From Bacteroidales bacterium (GTDB lineage Bacteria; Bacteroidota; Bacteroidia; Bacteroidales; WCHB1-69): a stretch of 33,156 nt of DNA. The position numbers and the translations under genes were made by a program. This document shows positions 2,052-27,718 of the stretch, piece after piece. The notes under the pieces were generated by a model. The model searched no databases, had not been told where the DNA came from, and saw nothing but the letters and a program-made list of their open reading frames with translations. The stretch is taken from assembly GCA_017961265.1 (NCBI GenBank), contig JAGCXN010000028.1:141874-175029 (forward strand). Direction: 5' to 3'. Each line of letters begins with the position of its first letter. The stretch's first letter is position 1.

Positions 2052-2086
2052 AGTTGCAGGTTTAAGTCCTAATTTAACACAGGGTG

Positions 2087-2216: not shown

Positions 2217-5200
2217 ATGAAAAAAAAATCTTGGGTCATTCTATCATTTTTTTTATTGATATCATCACAATATATTGATATTCAAGCACAAAATATCAAA
2301 AAAAATATTTCTTTTGCGTGGAAAGATCCCTTACGCTACGAACAATCTGACGGCACTACACTCCGTCTTTTATACTTCGACGGCGCCGTTTCCACCCCTG
2401 ATTATGAAACGCTTCCTCTTTATTTTGAACGATTTGAGACAGATGCTTTTTACGAAGAATACAGAGTATCACTTTCCAATATACAATCTGCCCGTCTGAC
2501 AGAGGAGGAGTCCGCAATGATCCCCGCCGGGTTTAACGCAAGCGACTTTTCCGCCACAGTCCACACAGCAGTTGACCGGAAAAAGAATTACACTACTATT
2601 TCCATACTGCCTATCCGAAAAGTGGGCTCCAGTTACGAAAAACTTTTGAGTGTCAGCGTTTCCATAACTCCAATACCTTCATCTAAAAAAGCGGTGAAGA
2701 CGCATATTTATGCCACCAACTCGGTGCTTCGGAGCGGCAACTGGTACAAGATTTCCGTCACAAAAACGGGAGTGCACAAAGTCACCTACGCAGACCTCAC
2801 CTCTTTAGGAATGTCGTTCAGCGGGCTTGCTTCAGACCGTATCGCCCTATTCGGAAACGGCGGGGCCATGCTGCCTGAAGCCAACGGTGCCGACCGCTAT
2901 GACGACCTTCAGGAACTGCCTATCGAGATGCACGACGGCGGTGATGGCATTTTCAATGAAGGGGATTATTTCCTATTCTATGCAGAAGGACCACACGGAT
3001 GGAAATACAACGCTGTGGATCAACGATTTTCACACACATTCAACCTGTACGACCATGCCGCCTACTACTTTATCAATGCCGATGAGGGCATCGGGACCAA
3101 ACGGCGCATTCAGGTGACAGACAACAGCACCCTCGTCCCGACCAATACTGCTTCCACCTATACTCACTACGGTTTCTATGAAACCGATCAATGGTGCATC
3201 GGTGAAGCTGGAAGGGGCTGGTACGGAGACCGCTATGATGTCACTACTTCTTACACTTACACATTACCATTACCGACGGCCATCGCAGGAGCCGGACGAC
3301 TCTCTGTGGACGTGGCCGCAACCTCCGCCAGCTACTCCTCTTTTGCTATATCTGTTAACGGAAACTCTCTCGGTTCTATTTCTGTCGGGGCTCTCAGCAG
3401 TGATTACTACGCCCTGACAGCCAACCGCAATTTCACACTCACTCCAACTGGCGGAAATACTTCCGTTACAATCACATACAGCAAACCAAACTCCTCGTCT
3501 TCCGGCTACCTCAATTATCTGGAGTGGCAGTTCCCGTGCCATCTCCGTCTTGAAAGCTGGCAGACCTCCTTCTGCCGCCCCGAAAGCGTAGGTACAAACG
3601 CCGTCACGCAGTTTCAAGTCGCCAATATGACCTCTGCTGCCAAAGTATGGGATGTAACCCAGATCACCAGCGTCAGCCAGATGGCAGGAACCCTTTCTGG
3701 GAGCACTTTCTCCTTCAATGCCCCTACCAGCGAACTGTGCAAATTCATCGCTTTTACAGACAATCAATGCTATGCCGTCACGCCAGTCGGACGGGTGAAC
3801 AACCAGGATCTCCATAGTTCCAGCCAAGCGGATATGATCATCGTGGCTCACCCCAACTTTATGACACAGGCGGAACGTCTGGCGGAATTTCGCCGTACGA
3901 ACGACGGGCTGTCGGTCAAAATCGTAACTCTGCAACAAATTTACAATGAGTTCTCCAGCGGTGGGCAGGACATCACGGCCATCCGCGACTATATGAAGAT
4001 GATTTATGAGAAATCACAAGGCAGTCAACCGCACTACCTGCTATTGTTCGGACGCCCGTCGTACGACTACCGTGGCATTGAGGGAACCTGCCAGCTTTAC
4101 GTACCCAATTACCAATCGAACAGTATTTTGAATGAAAAATACCTCCGTTCTAACGACGACTATTTCGGAATTTTGGACGACAATGATGGCGAAGGATGCA
4201 TAGGGATGGTTGATGTTGCTGTGGGCCGTTTCCCCGTTTCCACTGAAGCGCAGGCCAAAATTGCCGTGGACAAGACTATACAGTATGCTTCCCGTGACAT
4301 CTTGGGCAACGGCACTTCCTACTGCAATTTCGGAAGCTGGAAAAACATCGCCGCCTTTGTCGGGGATGACGAGGATGGCACCACCCATGTAACAGCTGCG
4401 GATCTTGCCGCCACTACAGCCGAAAATGCGAACCCCGACATCAATTTAGAAAAGATATATCTCGATGCCTATGAGCAAGTCACTTACTCTTCTTCTGCCC
4501 GATATCCGGAAGTGACAAAGGCCATCAACAATAGAATGAAGGCGGGATGCCTGCTATTTGCCTATTTTGGGCACGGGGGCAAGAACGGTTGGGCACATGA
4601 GCGCATCATTGAATTAACCGACATCAGCAAGTGGTCAAACCAATACAACCAGCCTTGGATGGTGACGCTGACGTGCGAGCTCGGCTGGTACGACCGCGCC
4701 CTTGTGTCTCCGGCAGAGCTGGCATTTCTCAATGCCAATGGAGGTGCAGCCGGCCTGATCACCACTTCCCGTGTGGCCTACACCTATAGTAACCAAGCAT
4801 ACGGGCAGAACTTTTTCGCACAAGTGTTTAATCGTGAGGACCACAAACCCATCACCATTGGCGAGGCCAATCGCATCACCAAGAACCTTAACGATGGAGC
4901 CAATGACTCCAAAAACATGATCTATGTGATGGGCGATCCCGCCATGCGTCTCGCAATCCCGCTCTACAATGTGGTCACAGATTCCATCAACGGGATTGCT
5001 GTAACAGACAACTTGGACACGCTCCGCGCCCTTTCACGCGTCACGGTTTCCGGACATATTGAAGACAACTCCGGCAACTTCCTACCTGACTTCAACGGCA
5101 GCCTCTACCCCTCCGTTTACGACAAGAAGACAACCGAACACACCTTACAAAACGATCCTGGCAGCAATTATTTCGAATTCCAAGTCCAAAAGAACATCCT

Positions 5201-6035
5201 TTTCAAAGGAAATGTGACGGTGAAGGACGGACGCTTCTCCTTCTCTTTTATTCTGCCGAAGGACATCAATTATGTTTATGGCAATGGCAAAATCAGCTAT
5301 TATGCCCATAGCAACCATGCCGAGGCCAACGGCTCCTTCCACGAAGCTATCATCGGCGGCATGAGCGACACCCCTATCAGCGACAGCAAAGGCCCTGAAA
5401 TAGAGCTTTATATGAACGACGAAAATTTCGTCAACGGTGGTACGGTGAACACTGCCCCCACCCTGCTGGTGAAATTGAAGGATGACTATGGTATCAACAC
5501 TACAGGCAACGGCATCGGACACGACCTTGTGGCCATCATTGACGGTAAGGAACAAACGGTGCTGAACAACTACTACGAGGCGGAGCGCGACAGTTTCAAC
5601 TGCGGCACCGTGCGATATCCCTACGAAAAGCTGGCGACCGGTTCCCACACGGTAAAAGTACGCGCATGGGACATCCTCAACAACGCCTCCGAAAGCGAAC
5701 TGGAATTTGTGGTCGTGAACGATGAAGGCCCCGTGCTCGACCACGTGCTCAACTATCCCAACCCCTTCACTACCAATACCTCCTTCTTCTTTGAACATAA
5801 CCTGCCTGGCACCGAACTCGACATCCTCATCACCATTTATACCATTTCGGGAAAGGTGGTGAAAACCATCAACACACAGCAGGTGACGGAAGGGTTCCGT
5901 AGCCGCCCGATCCCGTGGGACGGCCGCGACGACTTCGGCGACCGCCTCGGACGCGGCACCTACCTCTACCGCCTCAAGGTGCGCACCCCCGACGGAAAGC
6001 AGGCCGAAAAGTTTGAAAAAATTGTTATCCTATAA
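2217..6035 (+). CDS. porU: PorU, T9SS C25-family sortase-like peptidase
   Basis: The product is 1272 residues from the ATG at 2217. That start puts a signal peptide (MKKKSWVILSFFLLISS, ending near IQAQ) at the N-terminus; the in-frame ATG at 2163 would add 18 residues ahead of it. The central part is a gingipain-type C25 peptidase domain with the catalytic pair visible: His786 in YFGHGGKNGW and Cys820 in MVTLTCELGWYDR. The C-terminus carries a FlgD-like/CTD beta-fold (LNYPNPFTTNTSF, then YTISGKVVKTI and GTYLYRLKV). PorU is the surface peptidase that removes the C-terminal sorting domain of T9SS cargo and attaches the cargo to anionic lipopolysaccharide, working with PorV, PorQ and PorZ. porV follows after 63 bases, as in other Bacteroidota, supporting a porUV unit. 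The length is normal for the family. Confidence 0.95.
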   Translation: MKKKSWVILSFFLLISSQYIDIQAQNIKKNISFAWKDPLRYEQSDGTTLRLLYFDGAVSTPDYETLPLYFERFETDAFYEEYRVSLSNIQSARLTEEESAMIPAGFNASDFSATVHTAVDRKKNYTTISILPIRKVGSSYEKLLSVSVSITPIPSSKKAVKTHIYATNSVLRSGNWYKISVTKTGVHKVTYADLTSLGMSFSGLASDRIALFGNGGAMLPEANGADRYDDLQELPIEMHDGGDGIFNEGDYFLFYAEGPHGWKYNAVDQRFSHTFNLYDHAAYYFINADEGIGTKRRIQVTDNSTLVPTNTASTYTHYGFYETDQWCIGEAGRGWYGDRYDVTTSYTYTLPLPTAIAGAGRLSVDVAATSASYSSFAISVNGNSLGSISVGALSSDYYALTANRNFTLTPTGGNTSVTITYSKPNSSSSGYLNYLEWQFPCHLRLESWQTSFCRPESVGTNAVTQFQVANMTSAAKVWDVTQITSVSQMAGTLSGSTFSFNAPTSELCKFIAFTDNQCYAVTPVGRVNNQDLHSSSQADMIIVAHPNFMTQAERLAEFRRTNDGLSVKIVTLQQIYNEFSSGGQDITAIRDYMKMIYEKSQGSQPHYLLLFGRPSYDYRGIEGTCQLYVPNYQSNSILNEKYLRSNDDYFGILDDNDGEGCIGMVDVAVGRFPVSTEAQAKIAVDKTIQYASRDILGNGTSYCNFGSWKNIAAFVGDDEDGTTHVTAADLAATTAENANPDINLEKIYLDAYEQVTYSSSARYPEVTKAINNRMKAGCLLFAYFGHGGKNGWAHERIIELTDISKWSNQYNQPWMVTLTCELGWYDRALVSPAELAFLNANGGAAGLITTSRVAYTYSNQAYGQNFFAQVFNREDHKPITIGEANRITKNLNDGANDSKNMIYVMGDPAMRLAIPLYNVVTDSINGIAVTDNLDTLRALSRVTVSGHIEDNSGNFLPDFNGSLYPSVYDKKTTEHTLQNDPGSNYFEFQVQKNILFKGNVTVKDGRFSFSFILPKDINYVYGNGKISYYAHSNHAEANGSFHEAIIGGMSDTPISDSKGPEIELYMNDENFVNGGTVNTAPTLLVKLKDDYGINTTGNGIGHDLVAIIDGKEQTVLNNYYEAERDSFNCGTVRYPYEKLATGSHTVKVRAWDILNNASESELEFVVVNDEGPVLDHVLNYPNPFTTNTSFFFEHNLPGTELDILITIYTISGKVVKTINTQQVTEGFRSRPIPWDGRDDFGDRLGRGTYLYRLKVRTPDGKQAEKFEKIVIL

Positions 6036-6098
6036 AATAATGGTATTGTTTTTGCGTTAAGCATAGATGTTTTATTTTGAACCAAAATTTATTTTTGA

Positions 6099-7349
6099 AT
6101 GAAAAAAATACTCTGCCTGATGCTCCTTGCCGCCTTCGGCTGCACGGCTGCATATTCTCAAGCTATCGGCAATCACAACTATCTTGGACAAGAATTGAAC
6201 ACCATCACCACGGCCGTGCCGTTTTTGCAAGTCGCCCCTGACTCACGCTCCGGCGCCATGGGTGATATGGGTGTCGCCACTTCCGCCGATGCGAATTCCC
6301 AACACCACAACCCCTCCAAATACGTCTTCAATAAAAACAAGTTCGGCATTTCCATCTCCTATAGCCCATGGCTCCGCAAGTTAGTGAACGACATCAACCT
6401 GCTCTACCTCGGCACTTATTGGAAGATCACCGACAACGACGCTCTCTCCTTCTCACTTCGCTATTTTTCACTGGGTGACATCCAGTTTACCGACATGTAT
6501 GGCGCACCTATGGGAACTCAGAAGCCCAACGAATTCGCCATTGATCTCGGTTACAGCCGCAAACTGATTGACCAGCTCTCCATCGCCATCACCCCACGCT
6601 TCATCTATTCTAACCTCACCGCCGGACAATATGTGGAAGGTCAGGAGACCAACGCCGGTTTGGCCGGTGCCGCCGACGTGTCCATGTTCTATGAGCAGGA
6701 TTTCGAGCTTGGCAACAGTAAGATGAACAGCACCCTTCGTGCCGGCTTCAACATCTCCAACATTGGTAACAAGATTTCTTATTCTTCCGGAACCCTCCGC
6801 CGTGACTTTCTCCCCACCAATCTGAAACTCGGCGTAAGCTATGCCATTGATTTCGACGACTATAATACTTTGATGGCGGGTGTTGAGGTCAACAAATTGC
6901 TGGTACCCACCCCGCCGGAATACCAACTTGACAGCAACGGTCGTATCCTTTACGACGCTGCCAACAATCCTATCATTGCCCGTGGAAAGAATCCCGATGT
7001 ATCTGTGGCACAAGGTATCTTTCAATCCTTCGCCGATGCTCCGGGCGGTGCGTTGGAGGAATTCCGTGAAGTCAACTGGTCGGTAGGCTTAGAGTACAGC
7101 TACCGCAAATTATTATTCGTGCGTGCCGGCTACTTTTTCGAACATCCCACGAAGGGCAACCGCCAGTTCATTACCGTTGGTGCGGGTATCCACTACAGCA
7201 TCTTCGGCTTGGATCTGGCCTACCTTTTCACAGTTGACCAACACCATCCGCTTGAAAACACCCTTCGTTTCACCCTCACCTTCGACTTCGCCTCCTTCAA
7301 GAAGGACGACATCCGGAACCAAGGTAAGGAACAGATGGGACGGAAATAG
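6099..7349 (+). CDS. porV: PorV (LptO), T9SS outer-membrane shuttle protein
   Basis: The product is 416 residues. It has a signal peptide (MKKILCLMLLAAFGCTAAYSQ), then the family block TTAVPFLQVAPDSRSGAMG and AMGDMGVATSADANSQHHNPSKY. The remainder is FadL-like barrel sequence ending in the beta-signal-like LRFTLTFDF. PorV binds the C-terminal signal of cargo as it leaves the Sov/SprA channel and delivers it to the PorU-containing attachment complex. It follows porU by 63 bases on the same strand and is probably co-transcribed with it. The stop codon runs straight into a repeat-rich gap before ispF. Length and motifs are ordinary for the family, and I see no damage. Confidence 0.95.
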   Translation: MKKILCLMLLAAFGCTAAYSQAIGNHNYLGQELNTITTAVPFLQVAPDSRSGAMGDMGVATSADANSQHHNPSKYVFNKNKFGISISYSPWLRKLVNDINLLYLGTYWKITDNDALSFSLRYFSLGDIQFTDMYGAPMGTQKPNEFAIDLGYSRKLIDQLSIAITPRFIYSNLTAGQYVEGQETNAGLAGAADVSMFYEQDFELGNSKMNSTLRAGFNISNIGNKISYSSGTLRRDFLPTNLKLGVSYAIDFDDYNTLMAGVEVNKLLVPTPPEYQLDSNGRILYDAANNPIIARGKNPDVSVAQGIFQSFADAPGGALEEFREVNWSVGLEYSYRKLLFVRAGYFFEHPTKGNRQFITVGAGIHYSIFGLDLAYLFTVDQHHPLENTLRFTLTFDFASFKKDDIRNQGKEQMGRK

Positions 7350-12226: not shown

Positions 12227-12282
12227 ATTGTTAAACCAAATATATGGGCCAATCTAAGCACACCCTCCTATCCAGACCAATA

Positions 12283-12972
12283 ATGAATGAACTGACGATT
12301 GAACAAAAGAAAAAACTGATCCCTTATTTGCGCACTTTCATCACAGAGGAACGCGACGCACGCATTATAGAAGTACTTCAAAACCGCACACGCCACTTTA
12401 CCGTTGTGCTGGAGGACCTGTACCAGACACAGAATATCAGCGCGGTGATGCGCACCTGCGAATGTTACGGCGTCCAAGACGTGCACATTATCGAAAAGGA
12501 GAACGAGTTCATCATCCACGATGCCATCTCAATGGGCGCGAACAAGTGGCTGACACTCCATAATTACAAAAATGAGCCAGGCAATGTGGCCAAATGCGCC
12601 GATTACCTTCATTCGAAGGGATACAAGCTCATCGCCACCCTGCCCGCCGAAAACAGCGTCTTTGTGGACGACCTGCCCGTGGACGAAAAGACGGCCTTCT
12701 TCTTCGGCACCGAGCTGACGGGACTCTCGGAAGAAGCCGTAGCCGTATGCGACGGGGCCGTCAAAATTCCTATGTACGGATTTACCGAAAGTTTCAACAT
12801 TTCAAATTCTGTCGCCATCCTCACCTCCAACCGGATTGAACGGCTGCACCGCTCCGGCACGGAATGGCGGCTCACCTCCGACGAGCACGCCGAGCTCTAT
12901 TTTGAATGGCTTTGCAAATCCATCCGCAATATTGACCTGATCTTAAAGCGGAAATTAGAGGAAGGGGAATAG
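12283..12972 (+). CDS. SpoU/TrmH-family RNA 2'-O-ribose methyltransferase
   Basis: The product is 229 residues from the ATG at 12283; an in-frame ATG at 12244 would add 13 unconserved residues. The three SPOUT knot motifs are present: NISAVMRTCECYGVQDVHII, FFFGTELTGLSEEAVAVCD, and VKIPMYGFTESFNISNSVAIL. The N-terminal extension resembles TrmH, which methylates G18 of tRNA with S-adenosylmethionine. The family also includes rRNA methyltransferases, so the exact target is inferred. The gene follows the HU terminator without a recognisable promoter and ends 14 bases before the stop of ftsW on the other strand, with no terminator visible between the converging genes. Confidence 0.85.
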   Translation: MNELTIEQKKKLIPYLRTFITEERDARIIEVLQNRTRHFTVVLEDLYQTQNISAVMRTCECYGVQDVHIIEKENEFIIHDAISMGANKWLTLHNYKNEPGNVAKCADYLHSKGYKLIATLPAENSVFVDDLPVDEKTAFFFGTELTGLSEEAVAVCDGAVKIPMYGFTESFNISNSVAILTSNRIERLHRSGTEWRLTSDEHAELYFEWLCKSIRNIDLILKRKLEEGE

Positions 12973-12986
12973 CTGCCTTACTCGCC

Positions 12987-14135
12987 TCAGACCAACAGCT
13001 CTTCGTCCTCGCCATCGGTCTGGTCCACCACCTGTTTGGCCATGTTCATGAGTGTCCCCAAGGCAAAGCAGGTGAAGAAGAGCGAGACACTTCCGCGGCT
13101 GATGAGCGGCAGTGTCTGTCCCGTGGCGGGAATAACACCCGTATTGGCCCCAATATGGATCAGCGCCTGCATCAGGATTAACATCCCGACACCTGTGGCG
13201 TAGTAACGGATGAAGTTACCCCGCGCCTTCCGTGCCACAAACAGCGCCTGATAAAACAGTATTACGTAGATAATTAGAACGGCAAGCCCTGTGGCGAACG
13301 TAAACTCTTCGCAAATCAATGCGAAAATGAAATCATTCTCGCCTTCTGCCATATTCTTCTTGATCAGGCCTTTTCCCGGTCCCGACGGGTTGACGATGGA
13401 GCGCGAGATAGCCGCTTTCGAAAGCGTCATTTGTCGCCCATAGGCCTTGGAGTCACACTTGCCGTGCAGCCAATACTGGATACGGCTGTCAAGGGTGGTG
13501 GAACGATCTTCCTTTCCTTGTTCCACCATCACCTCATTTTGATTTCGGTAGTGTCCGATGGCAAGGTAGATTCCACCCAGTGCTCCACACAGCAGAAACG
13601 TGTAAATCAAGTGCTTGACTTTCACCCCCGCCACGAACATCACCGTCATTCCCGTAATGAAAAGAATGATGGCAGTGGAAATGTTGCGCAGAGCGATTAG
13701 TCCGACAAACAACATCAGCCACCCGATTCCCCAGATGGTTTGGTACTTGTCGATTTCCTTTCCCTTGTTTGTATGTTTTGCAAAAAAGATGCACAAATAA
13801 AAAATAAGGCAAAGGGAGACAATATAAAATGTCTGAATCAAATGTCCCCCGATAGAAATACTTCGACCGCCTGCGCCACGCCGCATGATAAGCGTGAGTA
13901 CCAGTAAAACGAACGCGACCCCAAGGAAAAGGATGGAGGAGCGGTTATACTTTTTGTAGCTCACCTTGGAGAAGGCAAAGATTGCACCAAGTCCTGCCGC
14001 TTGTTGGAGAAGTGGCAGCAATAGCTCGCCTGTCAGGCTATACGAGGTGAGTACCGACACAATGGACAGCAGGATCACCATCAGCCAGATGCCGTGGTAG
14101 TATTTCAACCGGTTGCGCAAGGTCGTGATTTCCAT
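12987..14135 (-). CDS. ftsW: FtsW, SEDS-family peptidoglycan glycosyltransferase
   Basis: The product is 382 residues with about ten membrane helices. It contains the SEDS signatures NPSGPGKGLIKKN, ENDFIFALICEE (carrying the conserved Asp of the catalytic region) and NTGVIPATGQTLPLIS. FtsW polymerises lipid II at the division site together with the transpeptidase FtsI. It is the last dcw gene here, following the MurD remnant with a one-base gap. The usual next genes (murG, murC, ftsQ, ftsA, ftsZ) are absent, and trmH on the opposite strand comes next. One oddity is that the segment after TGQTLPLIS reads RGSVSLFF, where a double glycine is usual (family form SxGGTS). Confidence 0.93.
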   Translation of the reverse strand: MEITTLRNRLKYYHGIWLMVILLSIVSVLTSYSLTGELLLPLLQQAAGLGAIFAFSKVSYKKYNRSSILFLGVAFVLLVLTLIMRRGAGGRSISIGGHLIQTFYIVSLCLIFYLCIFFAKHTNKGKEIDKYQTIWGIGWLMLFVGLIALRNISTAIILFITGMTVMFVAGVKVKHLIYTFLLCGALGGIYLAIGHYRNQNEVMVEQGKEDRSTTLDSRIQYWLHGKCDSKAYGRQMTLSKAAISRSIVNPSGPGKGLIKKNMAEGENDFIFALICEEFTFATGLAVLIIYVILFYQALFVARKARGNFIRYYATGVGMLILMQALIHIGANTGVIPATGQTLPLISRGSVSLFFTCFALGTLMNMAKQVVDQTDGEDEELLV

Positions 14136-14136: not shown

Positions 14137-14700
14137 TTACAACTGTGCTACAGCGTCTTTGAATGAGCTGCCTCTTTTCTCAATGCTATCACCCTGCTCG
14201 ACAGAAGTGCCGGGGCAATACAGCACTGCGTGGTTGATACCGGCGGAATAAAAAGCCGTACGCACCGCCGACTCCATATCCGTGGCATGTTCCGTCAGCA
14301 CGCCCATCCCCTCGAGGATTGTCCGCGACGGCGAAGTCTCACTACCGACAAAAACGACGGAAGTGATTTTCGTGCTGATGAACTGCATCAGTTCCGCAAA
14401 AAGGCCGCCGGCTTCACCCCACTGTTCGAATGAAGTGATCCACACCGCTTTCTTCTGCAGGTTGGAAAGAGCCATATAAACTCCGTTCACGTTGACGGAA
14501 GCAGCATCATTAATAAAGTCGATGCCGCGGATGTTCTTCACGAACTCCATCTTGTGTTCGGGCGTACCAAAACCGTTGGCAACCATCGCTGCCATCTGCG
14601 TACGGCGGCTGTTCAACAACCCCTGTAAGTCCCTGATTTCGGAACCGCCTATTTCAAAACCAATTCCGTATTCTCCTTTAACACTGGTGATCTTTTTCAT
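14137..14700 (-). CDS. MurD C-terminal remnant lacking the ATPase domain
   Basis: This is a 187-residue protein in the slot where dcw clusters carry murD (about 450 residues). From residue 46 it aligns by eye with the MurD C-terminal domain: PEHKMEFVKNIRGIDFIND, VNVNGVYMALSNL, KAVWIT, then DMESAVRTAFYSAG and a final KRGSSFKDAVAQL. Residues 1-45 may correspond to the end of the central domain. The UDP-binding N-terminal domain and the GTNGK P-loop are missing. The DSKATN motif reads DAASVN, so its lysine is lost, and SPACASFDLF is replaced by CPGTSVEQGD. It cannot act as a UDP-MurNAc-Ala:D-Glu ligase alone. The frame is intact, with ATG 24 bases after mraY and a stop one base before ftsW, so it is not simple decay. 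It may have a retained structural role. Confidence 0.8.
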   Translation of the reverse strand: MKKITSVKGEYGIGFEIGGSEIRDLQGLLNSRRTQMAAMVANGFGTPEHKMEFVKNIRGIDFINDAASVNVNGVYMALSNLQKKAVWITSFEQWGEAGGLFAELMQFISTKITSVVFVGSETSPSRTILEGMGVLTEHATDMESAVRTAFYSAGINHAVLYCPGTSVEQGDSIEKRGSSFKDAVAQL

Positions 14701-14724: not shown

Positions 14725-16032
14725 TTATCTGATTTTTAATGTTATGATTGCCAGAACGACACAAATGATGCTCAACACAATCATCCGTTGCGTGATGGTG
14801 GATTCGTGCAAGACAGATTTTCCCTTACGCGAGAAAATAACGGGCTGGTCGGCAACCGCCTGCTTCTGATAGTGGTGATGAAGCGGGGTCATAATGAAAA
14901 CTCGCTTACCTTGTCCGGTTTTCTTTTTCGTATATTTGAAATAGGCCCTCTGGATCAGCACCGAACAAGCTTCAATGAGGAAAATGCCGCACAGAAGCGG
15001 AATCAGCAACTCCTTGCGGATAATAATGCACGACACCGCAATAATGCCACCCAAGGTGAGACTGCCCACATCACCCATAAAAACTTTGGCCGGATAACAG
15101 TTCCACCAATAGAAGCCGATGAGGGCACCGACCAATGCCGAAACAAATACCACCAGCTCACTAATATTGGGGATGTACATGATATTAAGGTAATCAGCGA
15201 ACACGACGTTGCCCGACACGTAAGCCAATACAGCGATACCCACCGCAATAGGTGCGGAGACACCCGTTACAAGGCCATCCATACCATCGGTGAGGTTTGC
15301 TCCGTTCGAGACTGCCGTCAGAATAAATACGATGATCGGGATGTAAAACAAGAATGACCATTTGCCGTCTTCATCACCCATCCAGCGGGTGAACCACGCA
15401 TAATTGAACTCATGGTTCTTCACAAAAGGAATAGTCGTTTTGGTAGAGTGGAATGACGGAGTGACCGGCTGCTTCGCGGGCGCAATGTTCGCATCGGTCT
15501 TGCTGATGGTAAACATCTCGTCCGCCGTCGTCACCTGCTTCGGAAGGGAGTAGTTTTCCTTGATGCCCACTGCAGGATGGAAGTACATCACCACACCTAC
15601 GACAACACCCAGCACCACCTGTCCCAACAACTTTGTTTTTTCCGAAATGCCGTCCTTATTGTGCTTCACACATTTGATGTAGTCATCGGCGAAACCGAGA
15701 GCGCCGAGCCACAAGGTAGTGAAGATCATCAGCAGGACATAAATGTTGTCGAGTTTGTTGAACAGCAGCACCGGAATCAACAAGGAGACGATGATAAGAA
15801 TGCCTCCCATCTTGGGAGTGGAAGCCTTGTTTTCCTGTCCCGGAAGACCGAGGTCTCGTTCCTGCTCGCCACGCGTTTTCTTGCGCAAAATTTCAATCAC
15901 ACGGGGACCTGCCAGCAACGTGATCAAAAACGACAGTGCCAATGCGCACACTGCACGGAACGAAATGTAATGGAACAACCCCGCACCGGGGAAATTCAAT
16001 CCATGAAGCCAATCAAAAAGGTAATATAACAT
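14725..16032 (-). CDS. mraY: Phospho-N-acetylmuramoyl-pentapeptide-transferase
   Basis: The product is 435 residues with about ten membrane helices. The catalytic aspartates are in FADDYIKC and NLTDGMDGLVTG, and the histidine motif is MTPLHHHYQ. The family block near the N-terminus reads GQENKASTPKMGGI. Compared with proteobacterial MraY (about 360 residues) there is a soluble insert of about 70 residues (IKENYSLPKQ to NHEFNYAWF), which I recall as usual in Bacteroidota. MraY moves phospho-MurNAc-pentapeptide from UDP to undecaprenyl phosphate at the inner membrane, forming lipid I. It follows murE after a 154-base gap filled with heptamer-period sequence. Its start codon is preceded by AAACCTGCAACT, also found before porP. 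Confidence 0.96.
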   Translation of the reverse strand: MLYYLFDWLHGLNFPGAGLFHYISFRAVCALALSFLITLLAGPRVIEILRKKTRGEQERDLGLPGQENKASTPKMGGILIIVSLLIPVLLFNKLDNIYVLLMIFTTLWLGALGFADDYIKCVKHNKDGISEKTKLLGQVVLGVVVGVVMYFHPAVGIKENYSLPKQVTTADEMFTISKTDANIAPAKQPVTPSFHSTKTTIPFVKNHEFNYAWFTRWMGDEDGKWSFLFYIPIIVFILTAVSNGANLTDGMDGLVTGVSAPIAVGIAVLAYVSGNVVFADYLNIMYIPNISELVVFVSALVGALIGFYWWNCYPAKVFMGDVGSLTLGGIIAVSCIIIRKELLIPLLCGIFLIEACSVLIQRAYFKYTKKKTGQGKRVFIMTPLHHHYQKQAVADQPVIFSRKGKSVLHESTITQRMIVLSIICVVLAIITLKIR

Positions 16033-16186: not shown

Positions 16187-17659
16187 TTATAGTTGCCAGT
16201 CGTTGCGCACCTCCTCCATATCGTCGAAATGGTGTTTGGTGCCTTGTACGTCTTGGTATTTTTCGTGTCCTTTGCCGGCAATGAGGATGACCCCGTGGTC
16301 GCGCATGAGCATACAGGCGGTACGGATGGCTTCTCGACGATTTTCGATAATCAAGGTGTTGGGACGGAAGTCAGCGGGGATGCCCGGCTCCATATCTTTG
16401 AGGATTTGCGCCGGTTCCTCGAAGCGGGGGTTGTCGGACGTGAGGATGACACGGTCGCTGTACTCGCAAGCGATGGCGGCCATCTCGGGACGTTTGGTCT
16501 TGTCGCGGTTGCCGCCGCAGCCCACTACAGTCAGCACCTCCTCCCCTTTTCGGGTGATATTGCGGATGGTGGACAACACGTTTTTGAGAGCGTCGGGGGT
16601 GTGGGCGTAATCGACGATGGCGACGCCACCCTGGCCGTTGCGGATCACCTCGAAGCGGCCGTCCGCCGTGCCCAAGGCGCTCATCTTCACCAGCACCTCT
16701 TCCGAGGGCATCCCCAGAAGCACCGCCGCCGCATAGATGGCTGTCAGGTTGTAGGCATTAAACCGCCCCGACAAACGGAAGAACGACTCCACCCCGTTGA
16801 TCTGCAAGTGCAAACCTTCGAAACTATTTTCAATAAGGCGCGTTTTGAAATCGGCAGGCGACTGCAACGAGTAGGTTTTCACCGTCGCTTTGGTGTTCTG
16901 TACCATCACCATGCCGTTTTTGTCGTCAATGTTGGTGAGAGCGAAAGCGGTAGTGGGAAGTGCGTCGAAAAATCCCTTTTTTGCCTGAATATAGTTGGCG
17001 AAAGTCTTGTGGAAATCCAGATGGTCGTGGGTGATGTTGCTGAAGATGCCGCCCGCAAACGTCAGCCCTTCAATACGGTGCTGACACACGGAGTGGGAAC
17101 TGACCTCCATAAAGCAGTATTCGCAACCCGCTTCCACCATACGGGCAAGCAGAGCGTTCAGTTCCAACGCATCGGGTGTGGTGTGCGTGGCCGCCACCTC
17201 CTCGTCACCAATGCGGTTCACAATAGTGGAGAGCAATCCCGCCCTATATCCGAGGGCAGTGAACAAACGGTGCAACAACGTCACCGTGGTGGTTTTCCCG
17301 TTAGTGCCGGTGATACCGACCAGCTTCAATTTGCGGCTCGGATGGTCGAAATAGGCGTCGGCAATCCGTCCCAAAGCCACGGAGCTGTCGTTGACACGGA
17401 TGTAACAGACATTATCGGAAAGCGCGGAAGGCAGATCCTCACAGAGCACCGCACCCGCACCTGCCTCCACCGCTTGCGGAATATAGAGGTGACCGTCGGT
17501 CTGGGTGCCGCGCTGGGCCACATATAACGTGGTAACGCCCTCTTTTTCAGAGCGCTTTATCTTACGTGAATCAAATTCAATCTGTCCAATTCCAATTTCC
17601 GGACAGCCTTTGATTTCGCAATAGTCAATACTGCTTAATAATGTAGCTAAAGTTTTCAC
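16187..17659 (-). CDS. murE: UDP-MurNAc-tripeptide synthetase (meso-DAP type)
   Basis: The product is 490 residues, the normal length. The ATP-binding loop is GITGTNGKTTTVTL at residues 115-128. Substrate motifs follow: TTPDALELNALLA, MEVSSHSVCQHRIEGL and FSNITHDHLDFHKTF. The amino-acid-selecting motif is TSDNPRFEEP; the DNPR form points to meso-diaminopimelate rather than lysine. The C-terminus has ILIAGKGHEKYQ. MurE adds the third residue to UDP-MurNAc-Ala-Glu in the cytoplasm. It lies between ftsI and mraY, separated from both by heptamer-repeat gaps. Because the next ligase gene, murD, is only a remnant, the D-Glu-adding step that supplies MurE must be encoded elsewhere. Confidence 0.97.
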   Translation of the reverse strand: MKTLATLLSSIDYCEIKGCPEIGIGQIEFDSRKIKRSEKEGVTTLYVAQRGTQTDGHLYIPQAVEAGAGAVLCEDLPSALSDNVCYIRVNDSSVALGRIADAYFDHPSRKLKLVGITGTNGKTTTVTLLHRLFTALGYRAGLLSTIVNRIGDEEVAATHTTPDALELNALLARMVEAGCEYCFMEVSSHSVCQHRIEGLTFAGGIFSNITHDHLDFHKTFANYIQAKKGFFDALPTTAFALTNIDDKNGMVMVQNTKATVKTYSLQSPADFKTRLIENSFEGLHLQINGVESFFRLSGRFNAYNLTAIYAAAVLLGMPSEEVLVKMSALGTADGRFEVIRNGQGGVAIVDYAHTPDALKNVLSTIRNITRKGEEVLTVVGCGGNRDKTKRPEMAAIACEYSDRVILTSDNPRFEEPAQILKDMEPGIPADFRPNTLIIENRREAIRTACMLMRDHGVILIAGKGHEKYQDVQGTKHHFDDMEEVRNDWQL

Positions 17660-17789: not shown

Positions 17790-20057
17790 CTAAGGGCTTA
17801 GGGTGAGGGTGACGGTATTACTTTCTTTGCTATAGGATTGGCTTGTGACATTTCCTTTCCCGCTGATTTGGGCTCGGTGGCCATATTTCCGTACTTCAGC
17901 GATAGCGTCAGCTGCACTAAGGCCAATAACATTAGGCACGCTGTCCTTCACCGAGACGGTATAGCTGGTGAACAATGCCTCGTCCTCCCGCGAGGTGATG
18001 CAGTAGTCGGCCTGTTCATCTGGCATAATACCAGCTTTCCAGTGTTGCACAGCCGCCTTCAAGGTCTGCCAACGCACGGGGCGTCTGGCGACAAGGTGCT
18101 TCTCGCTCCGGTCAATCTCCTTCGCGGGATAGACAATCTGATGGGCGATGTTAGAGAACAGGCGCGCCGCCTCACCGCTGCCGTAACGTTTCTTCACATC
18201 AAACAGATAGACAATGCAGGTATATTTCGGATTGTCGGCGGGGAAGTATCCGCAGAAGGAGATGGCATTGCGGCTATAATCATATCGGCCAAGTGTCTGA
18301 TCATAGATATCACGCGTGCCCGTCTTGCCGGCCATGGGAAGATTTTCATCGTGGCATGAGTAAGCGGTACCTCCCTTTTCCATCACTACGGCACGGAGGA
18401 ACTCCTGTGCAATCTGGATAGTCTGCGGAGAGGCGATCCGTTCCTTCAGCACCACCGTCGGATACTCCACCGTCTCCTTGCCAAGGGTAGTGGAACGGAC
18501 AAAGCGGGGCTGCATCATTTTTCCTCCGTTAGCGACAGCATTGTAATAGACTAATGTCTGCAACGGCTGCATACAGAAACCAGCGCCGAAATAGTAACCA
18601 TATTGTTCTGTAAAGTTGCGTGTGTTGGGATGCATATTCACCGGTTCCAGTTTCCCGATTTGGGCGGAGAAGCCGATAGTCACAAACATGGAGTCAAGCT
18701 TTCGTGCATAGTCCGCATACGACGGGAAAGCATCACGCATCATCAGGGCCACGCCAATGTTGGACGAATGCTTGATAATTTCCCGCACGGAGACATCGCG
18801 GATGAGGCCACGCGAATGGGAGTCCTTGTATGAGTAGCTGCGTTTCCCGACATGGAAGGTATAGTCACCCCGGACGTATTTGCGGGTAGTGTCCCCGTGC
18901 AATTGCTCCAGATAAGCCAGCAGTGAAGCAAGTTTGAAAGTGGAGCCCGGCTCTGCGGACTCCGCCACCATTGCGTTATTGCGGGTTTCAAGATACACTG
19001 TGTCATCCCCATCGACAAAACGGGTGAAGTTCGACATCGCCTTGATATCTCCCGTCGCCGTTTCCATCACCACAGCGCAAGCCCATTTCGGCTTGGTCTC
19101 CAGCGCCTTTTCCAATAACTCTTTATGGACGATCTTCTGGATTTCCGTACTAATGGTCGTATAGACGGCACCGCCGTTCACAGGCGGGTTCTCCGATTCC
19201 AACGGTATGGATATACCATTGATATACAACCGTTTCTTTTGTCCTGGAATACCCGTAAGGACTTTATTAAATTCCGGATTCCCGTCAATACCGTTCCCTT
19301 TGCTCATATTGCCGAGAATACGCTGAGCCAGCTTCCCGTATGGGTGCACGCGCACTAAAAGTTCAGAGCTCCCTTCATTCAGGATATCGGCGAAATAGAG
19401 CTTTTTCAACTTCTTGGCCTCCATCTGTTGGGGCGAAAATCCGTAGCGGGCGCGGACGGCAGCTGCTGTATCTATGGTGCGGGAAAAAAGCGGCAAACTT
19501 TTGATGAAAGCCAAATCCTTGGCTAACACCATTTTATTTTCGCGAATCACCTGTTCCTCACTGAAGATGGTGACATACCGCTGATCCTTGAGCGCCCGCG
19601 TAAATTTAGCACGGTAATCGTCCACGCTGTACTCAGGATAACGGTCAGAAAACTGGTTATAAAAACTGACTGCAAGGTCGTAAATGAGGGTGTCAAGGTA
19701 GGGCTCATTCTCATTGAAGTAGCGGTAATTCTTGTTGTACGACATTCCATCCACACCTATAGGATAGACGCGCACATTGGACACCAGCGGCATGTTACTG
19801 TCATCGAAGATGATGCCGCGCGGGGGATTGACGAAGGACTCCACCACACAATTCTCCCGCATTTCGGGGGGCAGCGTGTCAAACTGCTCTCTTGAATAGA
19901 CGGGATAAATGTCCGTGGAGCCGCTATATTTCTTCTGTTGAAAGCAAGCGAGGTAAATCATACCAGCCAGACACAGCAGGATGAACGCCGCGCAGAATGC
20001 GATGACGATCCTCTGCCTCTTGATGAAATTGTCTTGCCGTTGTTTCTTCTTACTCAT
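17790..20057 (-). CDS. ftsI: FtsI (PBP3-type) division transpeptidase with PASTA domain
   Basis: The product is 755 residues. A short cytoplasmic tail and one membrane helix (about residues 16-38) lead into the pedestal domain. The transpeptidase domain has all three motifs: S372-T-F-K375, S431-S-N433 and K578-T-G580. A C-terminal PASTA-like repeat begins at VPNVIGLSAADAIAEVRKYG. FtsI cross-links septal peptidoglycan in the periplasm, activated by FtsL/FtsB-like proteins and paired with FtsW. Its ATG overlaps the end of the ftsL-like gene by eight bases, so translation is probably coupled. The C-terminal extension makes it longer than E. coli FtsI (588 residues). Confidence 0.96.
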   Translation of the reverse strand: MSKKKQRQDNFIKRQRIVIAFCAAFILLCLAGMIYLACFQQKKYSGSTDIYPVYSREQFDTLPPEMRENCVVESFVNPPRGIIFDDSNMPLVSNVRVYPIGVDGMSYNKNYRYFNENEPYLDTLIYDLAVSFYNQFSDRYPEYSVDDYRAKFTRALKDQRYVTIFSEEQVIRENKMVLAKDLAFIKSLPLFSRTIDTAAAVRARYGFSPQQMEAKKLKKLYFADILNEGSSELLVRVHPYGKLAQRILGNMSKGNGIDGNPEFNKVLTGIPGQKKRLYINGISIPLESENPPVNGGAVYTTISTEIQKIVHKELLEKALETKPKWACAVVMETATGDIKAMSNFTRFVDGDDTVYLETRNNAMVAESAEPGSTFKLASLLAYLEQLHGDTTRKYVRGDYTFHVGKRSYSYKDSHSRGLIRDVSVREIIKHSSNIGVALMMRDAFPSYADYARKLDSMFVTIGFSAQIGKLEPVNMHPNTRNFTEQYGYYFGAGFCMQPLQTLVYYNAVANGGKMMQPRFVRSTTLGKETVEYPTVVLKERIASPQTIQIAQEFLRAVVMEKGGTAYSCHDENLPMAGKTGTRDIYDQTLGRYDYSRNAISFCGYFPADNPKYTCIVYLFDVKKRYGSGEAARLFSNIAHQIVYPAKEIDRSEKHLVARRPVRWQTLKAAVQHWKAGIMPDEQADYCITSREDEALFTSYTVSVKDSVPNVIGLSAADAIAEVRKYGHRAQISGKGNVTSQSYSKESNTVTLTLSP

Positions 20058-20412
20058 TGCCTACCTCAATTTTATAATAGCCGTTGGCGTTGGTCGGTAC
20101 AAAGCCCATGTCGGCAGCCTCCTGACGCAGACGCTCCTCGTCTTCAGTATAAATCACCTCATTCCGGATTTTGAACTCCACCACCGTGCTGTCGTAGCGG
20201 TCTTGCAACTGCTTGTTCCTTTTCTCCTTGTTGTTGATGGAATGTTCGTTCCACAGGGCAACCAACACGATAATAATCACGGCAGCAGCCCACACGCCCC
20301 ATTTTTCGATGGAGCGCAAAAGATGGATACCGGAAAAGGTTTCACGGATGAAGGTCCGTAGCCTTCCCGGCTTTTTTTTCTTCTTGGGGTCAATGTCCTG
20401 ATTCTGGTACAC
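20050..20412 (-). CDS. ftsL: FtsL-like cell division protein
   Basis: The product is 120 residues. A lysine-rich cytoplasmic segment (about residues 1-36) precedes one membrane helix (about 38-54, WGVWAAAVIIIVLVALW) and a charged coiled-coil-like region. It ends with the Bacteroidota FtsL-like tail EERLRQEAADMGFVPTNANG. FtsL-type proteins link FtsQ and FtsB to the FtsW-FtsI synthase and help activate it. Sequence conservation in this family is low. The assignment relies on the topology, the tail motif, and the position between rsmH (54 bases upstream) and ftsI (8-base overlap). Confidence 0.85.
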   Translation of the reverse strand: MYQNQDIDPKKKKKPGRLRTFIRETFSGIHLLRSIEKWGVWAAAVIIIVLVALWNEHSINNKEKRNKQLQDRYDSTVVEFKIRNEVIYTEDEERLRQEAADMGFVPTNANGYYKIEVGNE

Positions 20413-20466
20413 TTTGTGGGGTTAAAGGTTAATGGTTATCGCGGTTTTAATGGGGTCAAGATAGGG

Positions 20467-21360
20467 TCAGCGTCGGGCTGCAATCCGCAGTTTGGCGCTT
20501 CGGGCGCGGGGGTTCGCGCCGATTTCCTCGTCGTCAGGGACGACGGCCTTGCGGGTGATGAGTTCGAAAGGGGTGAGCGGATTCCCATAGAAATCCTTTT
20601 CGATATTTCCCTCGAAATTCCCGGCCTTCATAAAGTTTTTGACGAGGCGGTCTTCGAGCGAGTGGTAAGAGATGACGGCGAGCCGTCCGCCGGGTTTCAG
20701 CACCTCAGCGGCCTGGGTCAGGAAGCTGCGGAGCACCTCCATCTCATCGTTGACTTCGATGCGAAGAGCCTGGAACACCTGCGACAAGGTCTTGTTCTCC
20801 TTGCCGTGCGGCAGGAGCGGTGCAAGCACGTTGACGAGGTCGGTGGTAGTGCGGATGGGCGTTTCGCGGCACTCCTCGATGCGGGCGGCAATTTGGCGGG
20901 CGTTGGCCAGCTCACCGTATTTATAAAAAAGGTCGGCGAGCGCCGCAACGGGATAACGGTTCACCACCTCAGCGGCGGTAAGGCCACGGCTGCTGTTCAT
21001 CCGCATGTCGAGATCGCCCTCGAAACGGTGCGAAAAGCCGCGTGCGGGGGTGTCGAACTGGTGCGACGAAACACCGAGGTCGGCCAGAATGCCGTCGGTG
21101 GGACATCCATTATAATATTGTATGAATTTCTTGAGATTACTGAAATTCGACGGGACAAACTGGAAGCGCGGGTCCTGGGGTACGTTGGCTACCGCATCGG
21201 GGTCCTGGTCGAAAGCAATAAGGCGACCCTTCGGACTGAGTTTCTGCAAAATCAGTGCAGAGTGGCCACCACCGCCAAAAGTAACATCAACATAGATTCC
21301 ATCGGGATTGGTCACCATCCCTTCAACGGAAGGATGAAGAAGAACGGGATTATGATACAT
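20467..21360 (-). CDS. rsmH: 16S rRNA (cytosine-1402-N4)-methyltransferase
   Basis: The product is 297 residues from the ATG at 21360, beginning MYHNPVLLHPSVEGM. The SAM-binding motif is YVDVTFGGGGHSALIL. Further blocks are ILADLGVSSHQFD, GFSHRFEGDLDMRMN, RIEECRETPIRTTTDL, LSQVFQALRIEVNDEME and AVISYHSLEDRLVKNFM. RsmH methylates C1402 in the 30S decoding centre. I chose 21360 over the in-frame ATG at 21393 because GGAGG lies six bases upstream of it, the only clear Shine-Dalgarno in the window, and because family members begin with a similar YHxPVLL segment. The gene overlaps the mraZ stop by eleven bases. Confidence 0.96.
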   Translation of the reverse strand: MYHNPVLLHPSVEGMVTNPDGIYVDVTFGGGGHSALILQKLSPKGRLIAFDQDPDAVANVPQDPRFQFVPSNFSNLKKFIQYYNGCPTDGILADLGVSSHQFDTPARGFSHRFEGDLDMRMNSSRGLTAAEVVNRYPVAALADLFYKYGELANARQIAARIEECRETPIRTTTDLVNVLAPLLPHGKENKTLSQVFQALRIEVNDEMEVLRSFLTQAAEVLKPGGRLAVISYHSLEDRLVKNFMKAGNFEGNIEKDFYGNPLTPFELITRKAVVPDDEEIGANPRARSAKLRIAARR

Positions 21361-21838
21361 CGCCGCCCTCCTTTCCTTGCTTTTGGAACTCACCCGAATG
21401 CATCTGCGCGTTGATGACAGCGAAGTCCTCCGGTGTCACCGAGTCACACATATTGTTGAAGTCGTTCTTGTTCCAGATTTCAATTTGCCCGTTGTCCAGA
21501 ACCAAAACCGCATCGCCTGCGATACCGTACTGATCCATCAGGTTCTTGGGCAGTACAATACGATTTTGCGAATCTGCTTCGATATAGGCGCTGTTGCGCA
21601 AAAGAATATTACGGTACAATTTGACCTGCAGATTGTTGCGATCCAAGGAATCCAAAAAATCCGATTGCTTCTGGTAGGCGGTCTGGGTCCAAAGCATGAT
21701 GTGCTTGCCAAAACCGACGGTGGCCCAAAATGACTGGCGATCCTCCTCTGGCAACTCCTTAATCAGAGCAGCAGGCAGCTTCAACCGCCCGTACTTCTCA
21801 ATGGAGACCTCAAACCAACGATATTTAAAACCAGTCAT
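21350..21838 (-). CDS. mraZ: MraZ, transcriptional regulator of the dcw cluster
   Basis: The product is 162 residues from the ATG at 21838. It contains two AbrB-like MraZ repeats: EVSIEKYGRLKLPAALIKEL near the N-terminus and YIEADSQNRIVLPKNLMDQYG in the second half. MraZ forms ring-shaped oligomers that bind repeats upstream of the dcw cluster; in E. coli it represses the cluster. An in-frame ATG at 21868 lies beside the likely transcript start, so I prefer 21838. The gene heads the minus-strand cluster and overlaps rsmH at its 3' end. I could not find clear direct-repeat operators of the proteobacterial type upstream. Confidence 0.93.
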   Translation of the reverse strand: MTGFKYRWFEVSIEKYGRLKLPAALIKELPEEDRQSFWATVGFGKHIMLWTQTAYQKQSDFLDSLDRNNLQVKLYRNILLRNSAYIEADSQNRIVLPKNLMDQYGIAGDAVLVLDNGQIEIWNKNDFNNMCDSVTPEDFAVINAQMHSGEFQKQGKEGGDVS

Positions 21839-21865
21839 AATTTTTCTTTGCGCCAAAAAAGCGTA

Positions 21866-21873
21866 CAAAAGTA
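21866..21873 (-). promoter_or_regulatory. Putative dcw-cluster promoter, -7 element
   Basis: The minus strand reads TACTTTTG, an exact TAnnTTTG match, 27 bases before the mraZ ATG. The -33 region is AT-rich without a clear TTG. As the first gene of the cluster, mraZ needs a promoter here. Confidence 0.6.
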
Positions 21874-25951: not shown

Positions 25952-27718
25952 ATGGAAGTAACCCGTATATTCGACATTCTTCCACATTACGCCATTCATC
26001 TGCAAAGGGATGATGCTCTTTGTGGTAAGGAAAATGGCGTTTGGAAGCATTACAGCACTACACAGTACGTCAATATTGTCAACAATATCAGCTATGGACT
26101 GATGCAGCTTGGCGTAAAGAAGGGTGATAAGATCGCCTCCATTAGTGCCGGACGGCCCGAATGGAACTTTCTGGACATGGCCATCATACAGCTAGGTGCC
26201 ATTCACGTGCCCATCTACCCCACTATCAGCGAGAATGACTACAAGTTCATCCTGCATCATGCTGATGTGAAGATGGTTTTCGTCTCCGGCTGGGACATTC
26301 TCCGCAAAATTGAGAACCTCATCGCCGAGATTCCGAACCTGAAGGATAACGTCTATACCTTCCGAAACCTCCGTGGCTATCACCACCTGAACGAGGTTAT
26401 CGAAATCGGTGCGGCCAATCCAAGTCCTCAGTACCTCAAGGAGATACGGGAACGCATCTCCCCCGATGACGTGATGACCATGATTTACACATCGGGGACT
26501 ACGGGCACGATGAAGGGGGTGCAGCTCACCCACCGTAACATCATCAACAACTTCAAGGCCATTCTACCGATTGTGCCCGTGCATCCGCAAACCCGCGTGC
26601 TGAGCTACCTGCCGCTGTGCCACATTTACGAACGCATGATGAACTACGCGTGGCAGTACCTCGGCATCCCCATTTATTACGCCGAAAGCCTCGGCACTAT
26701 CGCCGACAACCTGCGCGAAATCAAGCCCACCATCTTCACGACGGTGCCGCGTCTGCTGGAAAAATTCTACGACCGCATCATCGCTACGGGGCGCAAGATG
26801 CCCAAACTGAAGAAGAAACTCTTTTTCTGGGCCGACGAGGTGGCCAGCAACTACGAGCTGGAGCCGGAGCAGAGCAAACGTTACCGTCGCCAGCTGAAAC
26901 GCGCCCGCTCGCTTGTATTGAACAAATGGTACGAAGCCCTCGGCGGTCGGCTGGAGGTGATCGTTTCCGGTGGCGCCGCCATGCAGACGCGCCTCTGCCG
27001 CATCTTCTGGGCGATGGGTATCACCGTGCTCGAAGGTTACGGCATGACCGAAACTTCGCCCGTCATCGCGGTCGGCAGTTTTTTCAAAAAAGGGTTCAAA
27101 TTCGGCACGGTGGGGCAGCCACTGCCTGGCATCGAGGTCAAGATTGCCGAGGACGGCGAAATCCTCACCCGCGGTCACTGCGTGATGGCCGGCTACTACA
27201 AAGCCGACGATATCACCCGCGAGACCATTGACGAGGATGGGTGGCTCCATACAGGCGACATCGGGGCGTTCGAACCCGAAGGGCAGCTGTGCATCACCGG
27301 ACGGAAGAAGGAGATGTTCAAGACAGCCTTCGGCAAGTACGTCGTCCCCACGCTCGTGGAAGGCAAATTCCTCGAAGACTCGCTCATCGACAATATCATG
27401 GTTCTCGGCGAGAACAAGAAGTTTGCGGCAGCGCTCATCGTCCCCAACTTCTCGGACCTCCGCTCGTGGTGCACCCGCAAAGGCATCCATTACACCACCA
27501 ACGAGGAGATGATCAAGCATCCCGATGTTTTGAAAAAATACAAAAAGATCCAAGACCGCTGCAACGCCCAGCTCGGTGAGACGGAGCGTGTGATGCGGTT
27601 CGCACTCATCGACTATGAGTGGGGCGTGCCGACGGGCGAACTCACCGCCACCCTCAAGCTGCGGCGCAAATTCATTTCGGAGAAGTTCGCCGACAAGATT
27701 GAGAAGTTGTTTGAATAA
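25952..27718 (+). CDS. Long-chain fatty acid-CoA ligase (AMP-forming)
   Basis: The product is 588 residues. The adenylate-forming family motifs are in order: P-loop TSGTTGTMKGVQLTHRN from residue 180, LPLCHIYERM, GGAAMQTRLCRIFWAMG, EGYGMTETSPV, GWLHTGDIG and GRKKEMFKTAFGKYVVP. The enzyme activates long-chain fatty acids to acyl-AMP and then acyl-CoA. The form with YERM and a long C-terminal part resembles FAA1/FadD15-type ligases common in Bacteroidota. It lies 23 bases after the sorting-domain protein and 18 bases before ftcD, so the three may share a transcript, although no functional link is evident. No fatty-acid oxidation genes are adjacent. Confidence 0.92.
   Translation: MEVTRIFDILPHYAIHLQRDDALCGKENGVWKHYSTTQYVNIVNNISYGLMQLGVKKGDKIASISAGRPEWNFLDMAIIQLGAIHVPIYPTISENDYKFILHHADVKMVFVSGWDILRKIENLIAEIPNLKDNVYTFRNLRGYHHLNEVIEIGAANPSPQYLKEIRERISPDDVMTMIYTSGTTGTMKGVQLTHRNIINNFKAILPIVPVHPQTRVLSYLPLCHIYERMMNYAWQYLGIPIYYAESLGTIADNLREIKPTIFTTVPRLLEKFYDRIIATGRKMPKLKKKLFFWADEVASNYELEPEQSKRYRRQLKRARSLVLNKWYEALGGRLEVIVSGGAAMQTRLCRIFWAMGITVLEGYGMTETSPVIAVGSFFKKGFKFGTVGQPLPGIEVKIAEDGEILTRGHCVMAGYYKADDITRETIDEDGWLHTGDIGAFEPEGQLCITGRKKEMFKTAFGKYVVPTLVEGKFLEDSLIDNIMVLGENKKFAAALIVPNFSDLRSWCTRKGIHYTTNEEMIKHPDVLKKYKKIQDRCNAQLGETERVMRFALIDYEWGVPTGELTATLKLRRKFISEKFADKIEKLFE

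Follow-up and report, generated by a model that had tools for sequence, protein, structure and literature searches.

A MurD C-terminal domain kept as its own gene beside mraY in Bacteroidales, with a predicted MurD2-MurL takeover and a candidate internal start in murD

Introduction

The locus described here raises the question of why a bacterium should carry, in the place of murD in its dcw cluster, a gene for the last domain of MurD only, and of what then performs MurD catalysis. It lies in a 33,156-nucleotide stretch of a Bacteroidales bacterium assembly, referred to below as the window. An earlier note on this DNA had proposed that the catalytic MurD is encoded elsewhere and that the short protein was either retained and repurposed or is an early relic. 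The reading that we favour, with a probability of roughly 60%, is that murD of this order would specify both MurD and a separately translated C-terminal product, MurD-C, and that MurD-C was kept alone after a takeover by a MurD2-MurL route, probably as an adaptor near MraY. Comparisons with the window's family and with the order added three points to the earlier note, namely that the truncation recurs across the order, that it begins at an internal Met, and that this Met is start-like in full-length murD.

Results

The gene, murD-C (14137-14700, minus strand), was read from ATG to TAA as 187 amino acids plus stop, with mraY (14725-16032, minus strand) on one side and ftsW (12987-14135, minus strand) on the other, both assigned from the ORF list and the comparison of family loci. 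The end of mraY and the murD-C start are separated by 24 bases, and the murD-C stop and the ftsW ATG by 1 base. Upstream of mraY, murE (16187-17659, minus strand) was assigned from its ORF and a profile match, and the remaining ORFs of the cluster (17790-21868, minus strand) presumably encode PBP2/FtsI-like, FtsL-like, RsmH (MraW) and MraZ proteins. The dcw cluster stops at ftsW, facing a convergent RNA-methyltransferase-like gene (window 12244-14135); a murG-like gene and murC stand together on a different contig (L004), and window 1062-7349 holds what we take to be type IX secretion-like genes (PorP/SprF-like, PorU-like and PorV-like).

Residues 38-185 of the window protein were aligned by the TIGR01087 murD profile to model positions 295-440 of 441 (E 2.3e-21), and the score of 76.4 bits, set against a curated whole-protein cut-off of 212 bits, leaves the protein outside the equivalog definition of MurD. 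The Pfam Mur_ligase_C match was also sub-threshold (25.7 vs 28.4 bits). In a PDB sequence search MurD chains aligned to the window protein from about their residue 290-310 onward; alone it matched PDB 3lk7 with E 1.2e-7, and a profile (A3) built from 28 short and 6 full-length rows matched 3lk7 residues 295-444 with E 1.2e-25, which places the protein as a homologue of one domain of solved MurDs. Its N-terminal tail (residues 1-37; 14590-14700, minus strand) occupies the place of the MurD central domain end in rewritten sequence, with R32 corresponding to the conserved Arg318 of the full-length reference. The C-terminal domain (residues 38-187; 14140-14589, minus strand) has retained core residues and lost ligand residues: the former DSKATN motif reads DAASVN (14491-14508, minus strand), its Asp retained and its Lys (E. 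coli K319) gone, and the SPACAS stretch reads CPGTSV. Neither a P-loop nor a central ATPase domain is encoded in the murD-C ORF. The earlier note had described an uninterrupted gene of 187 codons flanked by mraY and ftsW, reduced to the MurD C-terminal domain, with the P-loop gone, the DSKATN motif altered and the contact stretch after SPACAS rewritten, and on each of these points it was right. The protein ends in AVAQL (14140-14154, minus strand; alignment A1), and A(V/I)AQL or SVAQL closes 16 of the 17 family rows of that alignment. MurD-C is like MurD in its homologous C-terminal domain and its dcw slot, and unlike it in missing the N-terminal and central (ATPase) domains and in having lost the residues of E. 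coli K319 and K348 and the SPACAS serine; by itself it cannot be a ligase.

Conservation of the short gene was examined in the window's family. The slot held a short open frame in 34 of 36 family genomes, full-length MurD in one (genus code g15) and no match in one, and a murD-C homologue was present in all 28 family loci fetched. The 33 family loci are recorded as Bacteroidales, Bacteroidetes, Lentimicrobiaceae or Porphyromonadaceae bacterium, many of them from the rumen or other animal guts, and six (L082, L083, L085, L086, L087 and L090) contain full-length murD. The slot gene had mraY directly upstream in 31/31 family loci checked and in 32 of the 34 short loci outside the family main group, the other two having fewer than 62 bases of upstream sequence. 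The homologue in every family locus fetched and the constant mraY neighbour in the family make this feature more than a chance occurrence. At most 1.5 kb downstream, ftsW was present in 26/31 family loci; for the other five it was not found in the sequence read. In L071 and L074 ftsW is absent within 6 kb of the short gene, which still follows mraY, and in L064 the short gene follows mraY with ftsW 5.3 kb away.

Ratios of dN/dS (Nei-Gojobori) for the short gene were 0.036-0.17 in 7 usable of 10 pairs, three pairs (win-L088, L084-L091 and L071-L069) having been excluded for saturated dS. For murE, mraY and ftsW the same pairs gave 0.003-0.10, and the short gene lay above all three in 5/7, dS varying among the genes of one pair. 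The short gene is under purifying selection. Both checks that the earlier note had proposed here, the slot comparison in related genomes and the dN/dS of the short gene, speak for its suggestion of a retained and repurposed gene; open frames in all relatives read, together with these ratios, contradict its other suggestion of an early relic.

Selection of this kind was matched by the residues that the short proteins keep. In the window's family group, from which 29 short proteins were compared, the K348 equivalent was retained in 0% and the K319 lysine in 14%, and conservation of 90-100% was found at R318, H334, E337, G344, F347, D350, N357, W372, I373, A427, V428, P445, R459, G460, F463 and L470 (reference numbering). 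The HN-motif His was absent from 14/14 further short proteins (13 of them from other families, the last from G018 of genus g7), 36% of which retained the D-Glu lysine (K348 equivalent). Ligand contacts were lost from the short proteins and scaffold residues stayed.

Ligases were then inventoried in the window's own assembly (1.89 Mb, 47 contigs, 76.8% complete), where profile matches were read as MurC, MurE, MurF, MurF-Alr, Mpl and FolC. A search of this 76.8% complete assembly returned no match for full-length MurD, MurD2, a MurL-like protein or MurI. The possibility that MurD is split, its N-terminal half being encoded at another place in the genome, was considered and rejected, as the six PF08245 matches include no ORF confined to the first two domains. 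Since a MurL match was found in every family genome that is at least 90% complete and at most 5% contaminated (53/53), the lack of MurD2 and MurL in the window's assembly is probably an assembly gap, a reading that comes from the family. The earlier note's proposal of a catalytic MurD elsewhere in the genome consequently stands for most relatives, which encode a complete ligase elsewhere, and rests on them, because the window's own assembly lacks full-length MurD, MurD2, MurL and MurI.

A ligase above the murD cut-off was present in 89/104 family genomes. As a rule this is a second gene that lies away from the cluster; the exception is G102, whose listed match is the slot gene. Four of the 15 genomes without it are at least 90% complete (G005, G010, G028 and G120, the match in G120 reaching a contig end). 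Within the window's genus the ligase was above cut-off in 8/13 genomes, two of the five without it being rather complete (G005, 93%; G010, 95%), and a MurL match was present in 12/13, the exception being the window's own. The second ligase spans all three domains, with TIGR01087 scores of about 287-347 bits over the whole model in the family copies. When aligned to E. coli MurD it carries Glu, Arg and Ile at the positions of D182, K348 and K319 in 28/28 rows (27 genes), which is the residue pattern of MurD2 (Glu at D182, Arg at K348 and no Lys at K319). A complete murD with GTNGK and DSKATN motifs, which the earlier note had expected elsewhere, is not what the relatives hold: their replacement reads GTKGKST and DSI(S/A)T and is of the MurD2 (L-Glu) type. 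According to PMC8788868, a double exchange at the D182 and K348 equivalents switches Xanthomonas MurD2 from L-Glu to D-Glu, and E. coli MurD K319T accepts L-Glu.

MurL-like proteins were found in 94/104 family genomes, and MurI above cut-off in 0/104, with three weak matches. Against NF041275, most complete MurL-like proteins scored about 200-285 bits; the cut-off of this model, 700 bits, was set for Xanthomonadales and was passed by 0/393 order genomes and 0/104 family genomes. The MurL-like gene adjoins the second ligase in G018, G026 and all ten order loci L166-L175, and murL lies apart from murD2 in 12 family loci (L176-L187). From the MurD2 residues of the second ligase and the adjacent MurL match, addition of L-Glu followed by MurL epimerisation is predicted, so that MurD catalysis in the relatives would be provided by a MurD2-type ligase together with a MurL-like epimerase.

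Several further arrangements of these genes were observed. In genus g10 of the family a single 749-aa ORF joins a MurD2-type ligase to MurB, with NCBIfam matches for both (L137:1688-3934). Frames of 885-949 aa that hold MurL and MurD C-terminal matches together (G181:C12, G284:C6, G373:C16, G439:C11 and G209:C329) point to a MurL-MurD2 fusion. The MurL match of one 93% complete genome (G005:C21:1880-3007) has three in-frame stops, from decay or sequencing error. In L185 (G003) murL adjoins what we take to be a homologue of the window's acyl-CoA-synthetase-like gene (25952-27718); the window neighbour of that gene, at the place of the L185 murL, is presumably a formiminotransferase-like gene.

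The comparison was extended to 393 genomes of the order, in which MurL-like proteins were found in 122 and MurI above cut-off in 241. Strong MurL and strong MurI, the latter by a line that we set at E 1e-25, occurred together in 0 genomes, and weak MurI-like matches in 6/122 MurL genomes. A short slot frame was found in 31/83 MurL and 0/86 MurI genomes measured (Fisher p 7.9e-12, the genomes not being independent of one another). Raw counts were 34/86 and 1/87, from which contig-end cases were removed (G209, G197 and G478 with MurL; G363 with MurI); G154, also contig-cut, falls in neither group, and G049, with neither MurL nor MurI, was excluded from the comparison. The slot frame is known in 187 of the 393 genomes. 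These are a non-random sample, made up of genomes among the matches listed, those first checked, and 70 selected in the main because they had two matches or scored weakly; where no locus was read, the top-scoring match was counted as the slot gene.

Full and short forms both occur in families f3, f5, f12, f26, f34, f49 and f94 and in the window's own, and within one genus code in f5, f34 and f49. A tree built from 88 C-terminal domains requires 8-9 changes between the full and the short form, well-supported branches alone forcing 4, and on it the MurD2 type forms a single clade with support 100/100; repeats (L025, L092 and L096), near copies (L101, L120 and L008) and contig ends (L151, L156 and L159) were left out. 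A simple story of replacement and truncation is countered by three findings. All 21 full-length slot MurDs read in MurL genomes retain ligase motifs, with small variations, despite the absence of MurI; the two genomes of f77 (L190 and L191) have mraY with no murD or dcw neighbour in the sequence read, the only apparent complete loss; and G049 (L140, f15; 98% complete) has a very divergent short slot gene and neither a MurL nor a MurI match. One short slot gene (L188:2763-3569, G342) encodes 269 aa, with a long insert in its C-terminal half.

The point of truncation was determined in 34 short genes outside the family main group (14 and a further 20, one of which, that of G478, ends at a contig edge). 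Counted from the first Met, the product has 181-182 aa in 25/34. The start coincides exactly with Met289 of the reference in 28/34 (14/14 and 14/20) and lies at most two residues from it in 32/34. In full-length murD, Met289 (in MTLEELALQGKHN) is present in 33/35 genes of a first set and, among 80 further genes retrieved as a second set for the openness test described below, in 53/57 from MurI genomes and 23/23 from MurL genomes, 109/115 in total.

Openness of the mRNA was scored as z against codon permutations in which protein and codon usage were held constant. Reference positions 280-289 were the ten least structured of 419 in the first 35 genes. In these genes the mean z was +1.16 at 289 and close to +1.0 from 281 to 285; apart from 275 and 295, none of the remaining probed positions exceeded +0.2. 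In the second set, the 57 MurI genes gave +0.46 at Met289, with a mean of -0.31 (sd 0.22, maximum +0.18) over 64 other positions, and the 23 MurL genes gave +1.00, with a mean of -0.26 (sd 0.43, maximum +0.83) over the other positions. The codon signal in MurI genes is modest, and the A-richness upstream is not unique in that set, another position standing at +0.62; because all the genes are related, p-values overstate their independence. No openness signal was seen at the same domain boundary in murD2 (26 genes) or murE (35 genes), and mraY (31 genes), serving as positive control, peaked at +1.30 some eleven residues short of its end, at the start of the next gene. Mean z was -0.41 in the six genes without Met289 vs +0.85 in the 109 with it; four of the six are slightly positive (one has an ATG two codons upstream), and two strongly negative genes drive the mean.

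At single wobble positions of 108 genes, A was above expectation before the ATG at -22, -19, -16, -13 and -4 and after it at +5 (0.57 observed vs 0.26 expected) and +8 (0.48 vs 0.26), and below expectation at +3 (0.56 vs 0.67) and -1 (0.19 vs 0.28). Frequent A at -3 (0.78) and -12 (0.77) is mostly imposed by the protein, and -6 is mostly T. Bacteroidetes starts, as described in PMC6847099, use no Shine-Dalgarno sequence, are tuned by mRNA structure and favour A at -3, -6 and -14 to -11; at Met289 A is common at -3 and -12, mostly through the demands of the protein, and -6 departs from the description. The context of the internal ATG is start-like beyond the demands of the protein by openness in both gene sets, and mixed at single positions.

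Discussion

In the sequence of events that we propose, dcw murD of Bacteroidales would hold an in-frame internal start at a conserved Met 182 codons from the gene end, from which a free C-terminal domain would be made in addition to the ligase. In lineages without MurI that acquired MurL-MurD2, by which L-Glu would be ligated first and epimerised afterwards, the ligase portion of dcw murD would have become dispensable. It may have been deleted repeatedly, in most cases precisely as far as the internal start, so that MurD-C remained as an independent gene. MurD-C would then have given up its ATP and glutamate contacts, its fold residues being held by purifying selection. Its constant mraY neighbour and lost ligand sites favour an adaptor role, most likely a non-catalytic one for peptidoglycan proteins encoded next to it, MraY first. 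The candidate role among MraY, MurE and FtsW that the earlier note put forward would have to fit genera in which ftsW does not lie close to the gene. The broader proposition, that murD is a two-product gene whose C-terminal domain is needed near MraY and that the MurD2-MurL swap exposed MurD-C some eight times or more, we regard as evenly balanced between true and false.

The alternative that comes closest to this account of the cut point also takes MurD-C to be functional and dispenses with a prior internal start: truncations would have used the nearest conserved Met, and the codon signal would have another cause, e.g. a translation pause. Met289 does lie near the boundary of domains 2 and 3 and is followed in full-length MurD by a conserved run, LALQGKHN, with which it could be co-conserved; 17 residues further on there is another conserved Met (306), and the start context is partly fixed by the protein. 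The signal, however, sits at synonymous sites and is start-like in kind (openness; wobble A ahead of the ATG as well as at +5 and +8), and it is absent at the same boundary of murD2 and murE; we give this account a minor though appreciable chance. That the open stretch in murD serves instead as an internal promoter for ftsW and the genes that follow is very improbable. The stretch before ftsW is AT-rich, and the Bacteroides promoter -7 motif is TANNTTTG; this motif was nevertheless not enriched upstream (3 occurrences in 16.2 kb vs 37 in 131 kb), and a promoter would account neither for A at +5 and +8 nor for truncation at the Met.

Other alternatives concern what the short protein does. As a paralogue of the ligase's own C-terminal domain that persists alongside MurD2, MurD-C might be a helper subunit that binds MurD or MurD2 and alters its activity or stability, yet MurD2 has all three domains and motifs of its own, and the short gene stays with mraY, not with murD2; this role seems to us rather unlikely. 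A slowly dying remnant of MurD could be expected from the lost ligand residues, from dN/dS above that of the three neighbours in 5/7 usable pairs and from f77, which has no murD beside mraY. The selection data contradict it, dN/dS being well below 1 and many core residues 90-100% conserved, as do the open frame found in this slot throughout the family and the recurrence of this fragment in independent lineages, and we attach very little credence to it. Least credible is that the ORF merely couples translation from mraY to ftsW and that its protein is irrelevant. The spacing is indeed tight, with 1-2 bases from the stop to the next ATG in the window and in several relatives; conservation at the amino-acid level and purifying selection are against this reading, which we rated lower still because the gene is kept where ftsW is not near (the five of 31 family loci with no ftsW in the sequence read, and L071 and L074, where none lies within 6 kb).

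The adaptor reading with an internal start in murD may be set beside known systems. In some bacterial genes an in-frame internal start gives rise to an N-terminally shortened isoform; we know of no such case for a Mur ligase. Like these genes, murD would combine two nested products in one gene, and it has a start-like context at the internal ATG; unlike them, its short product became a separate gene several times. The ligase system of the relatives resembles the MurD2-MurL system of Xanthomonas, as described in PMC8788868 and PMC5808125, in the Glu and Arg of MurD2 with no K319 Lys, in a MurL-like gene that is adjacent in 10/10 order loci, and in having no MurI above cut-off. It differs from that system in its Bacteroidales host, in MurL scores far under the Xanthomonadales cut-off, in an activity that is predicted from sequence, and in murL and murD2 genes that are mostly apart in the window's family. 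These two papers place MurD2-MurL in Gamma- and Alphaproteobacteria and actinobacteria, one of them adding distant homologues in a fungus, cyanobacteria and an amoeba, and a text search for 'Bacteroid' in their available text found the word in neither. A literature search with most subscription journals outside its coverage returned nothing on a MurD isoform or domain, a second MurD, Bacteroides internal starts, or MurL/MurD2 in such a setting.

If the proposed reading is true, a much-studied enzyme and antibiotic target gains a second, separately translated product. The short genes would amount to natural experiments in which evolution removed the enzyme and kept the C-terminal product, which suggests a non-enzymatic job for this part of the enzyme and makes links of the cytoplasmic Mur enzymes to MraY and the division genes testable. 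The predicted MurD2-MurL route would be extended to much of a gut order, with roughly one in three of the Bacteroidales genomes sampled, and its presence there would bear on drugs aimed at MurI or MurD.
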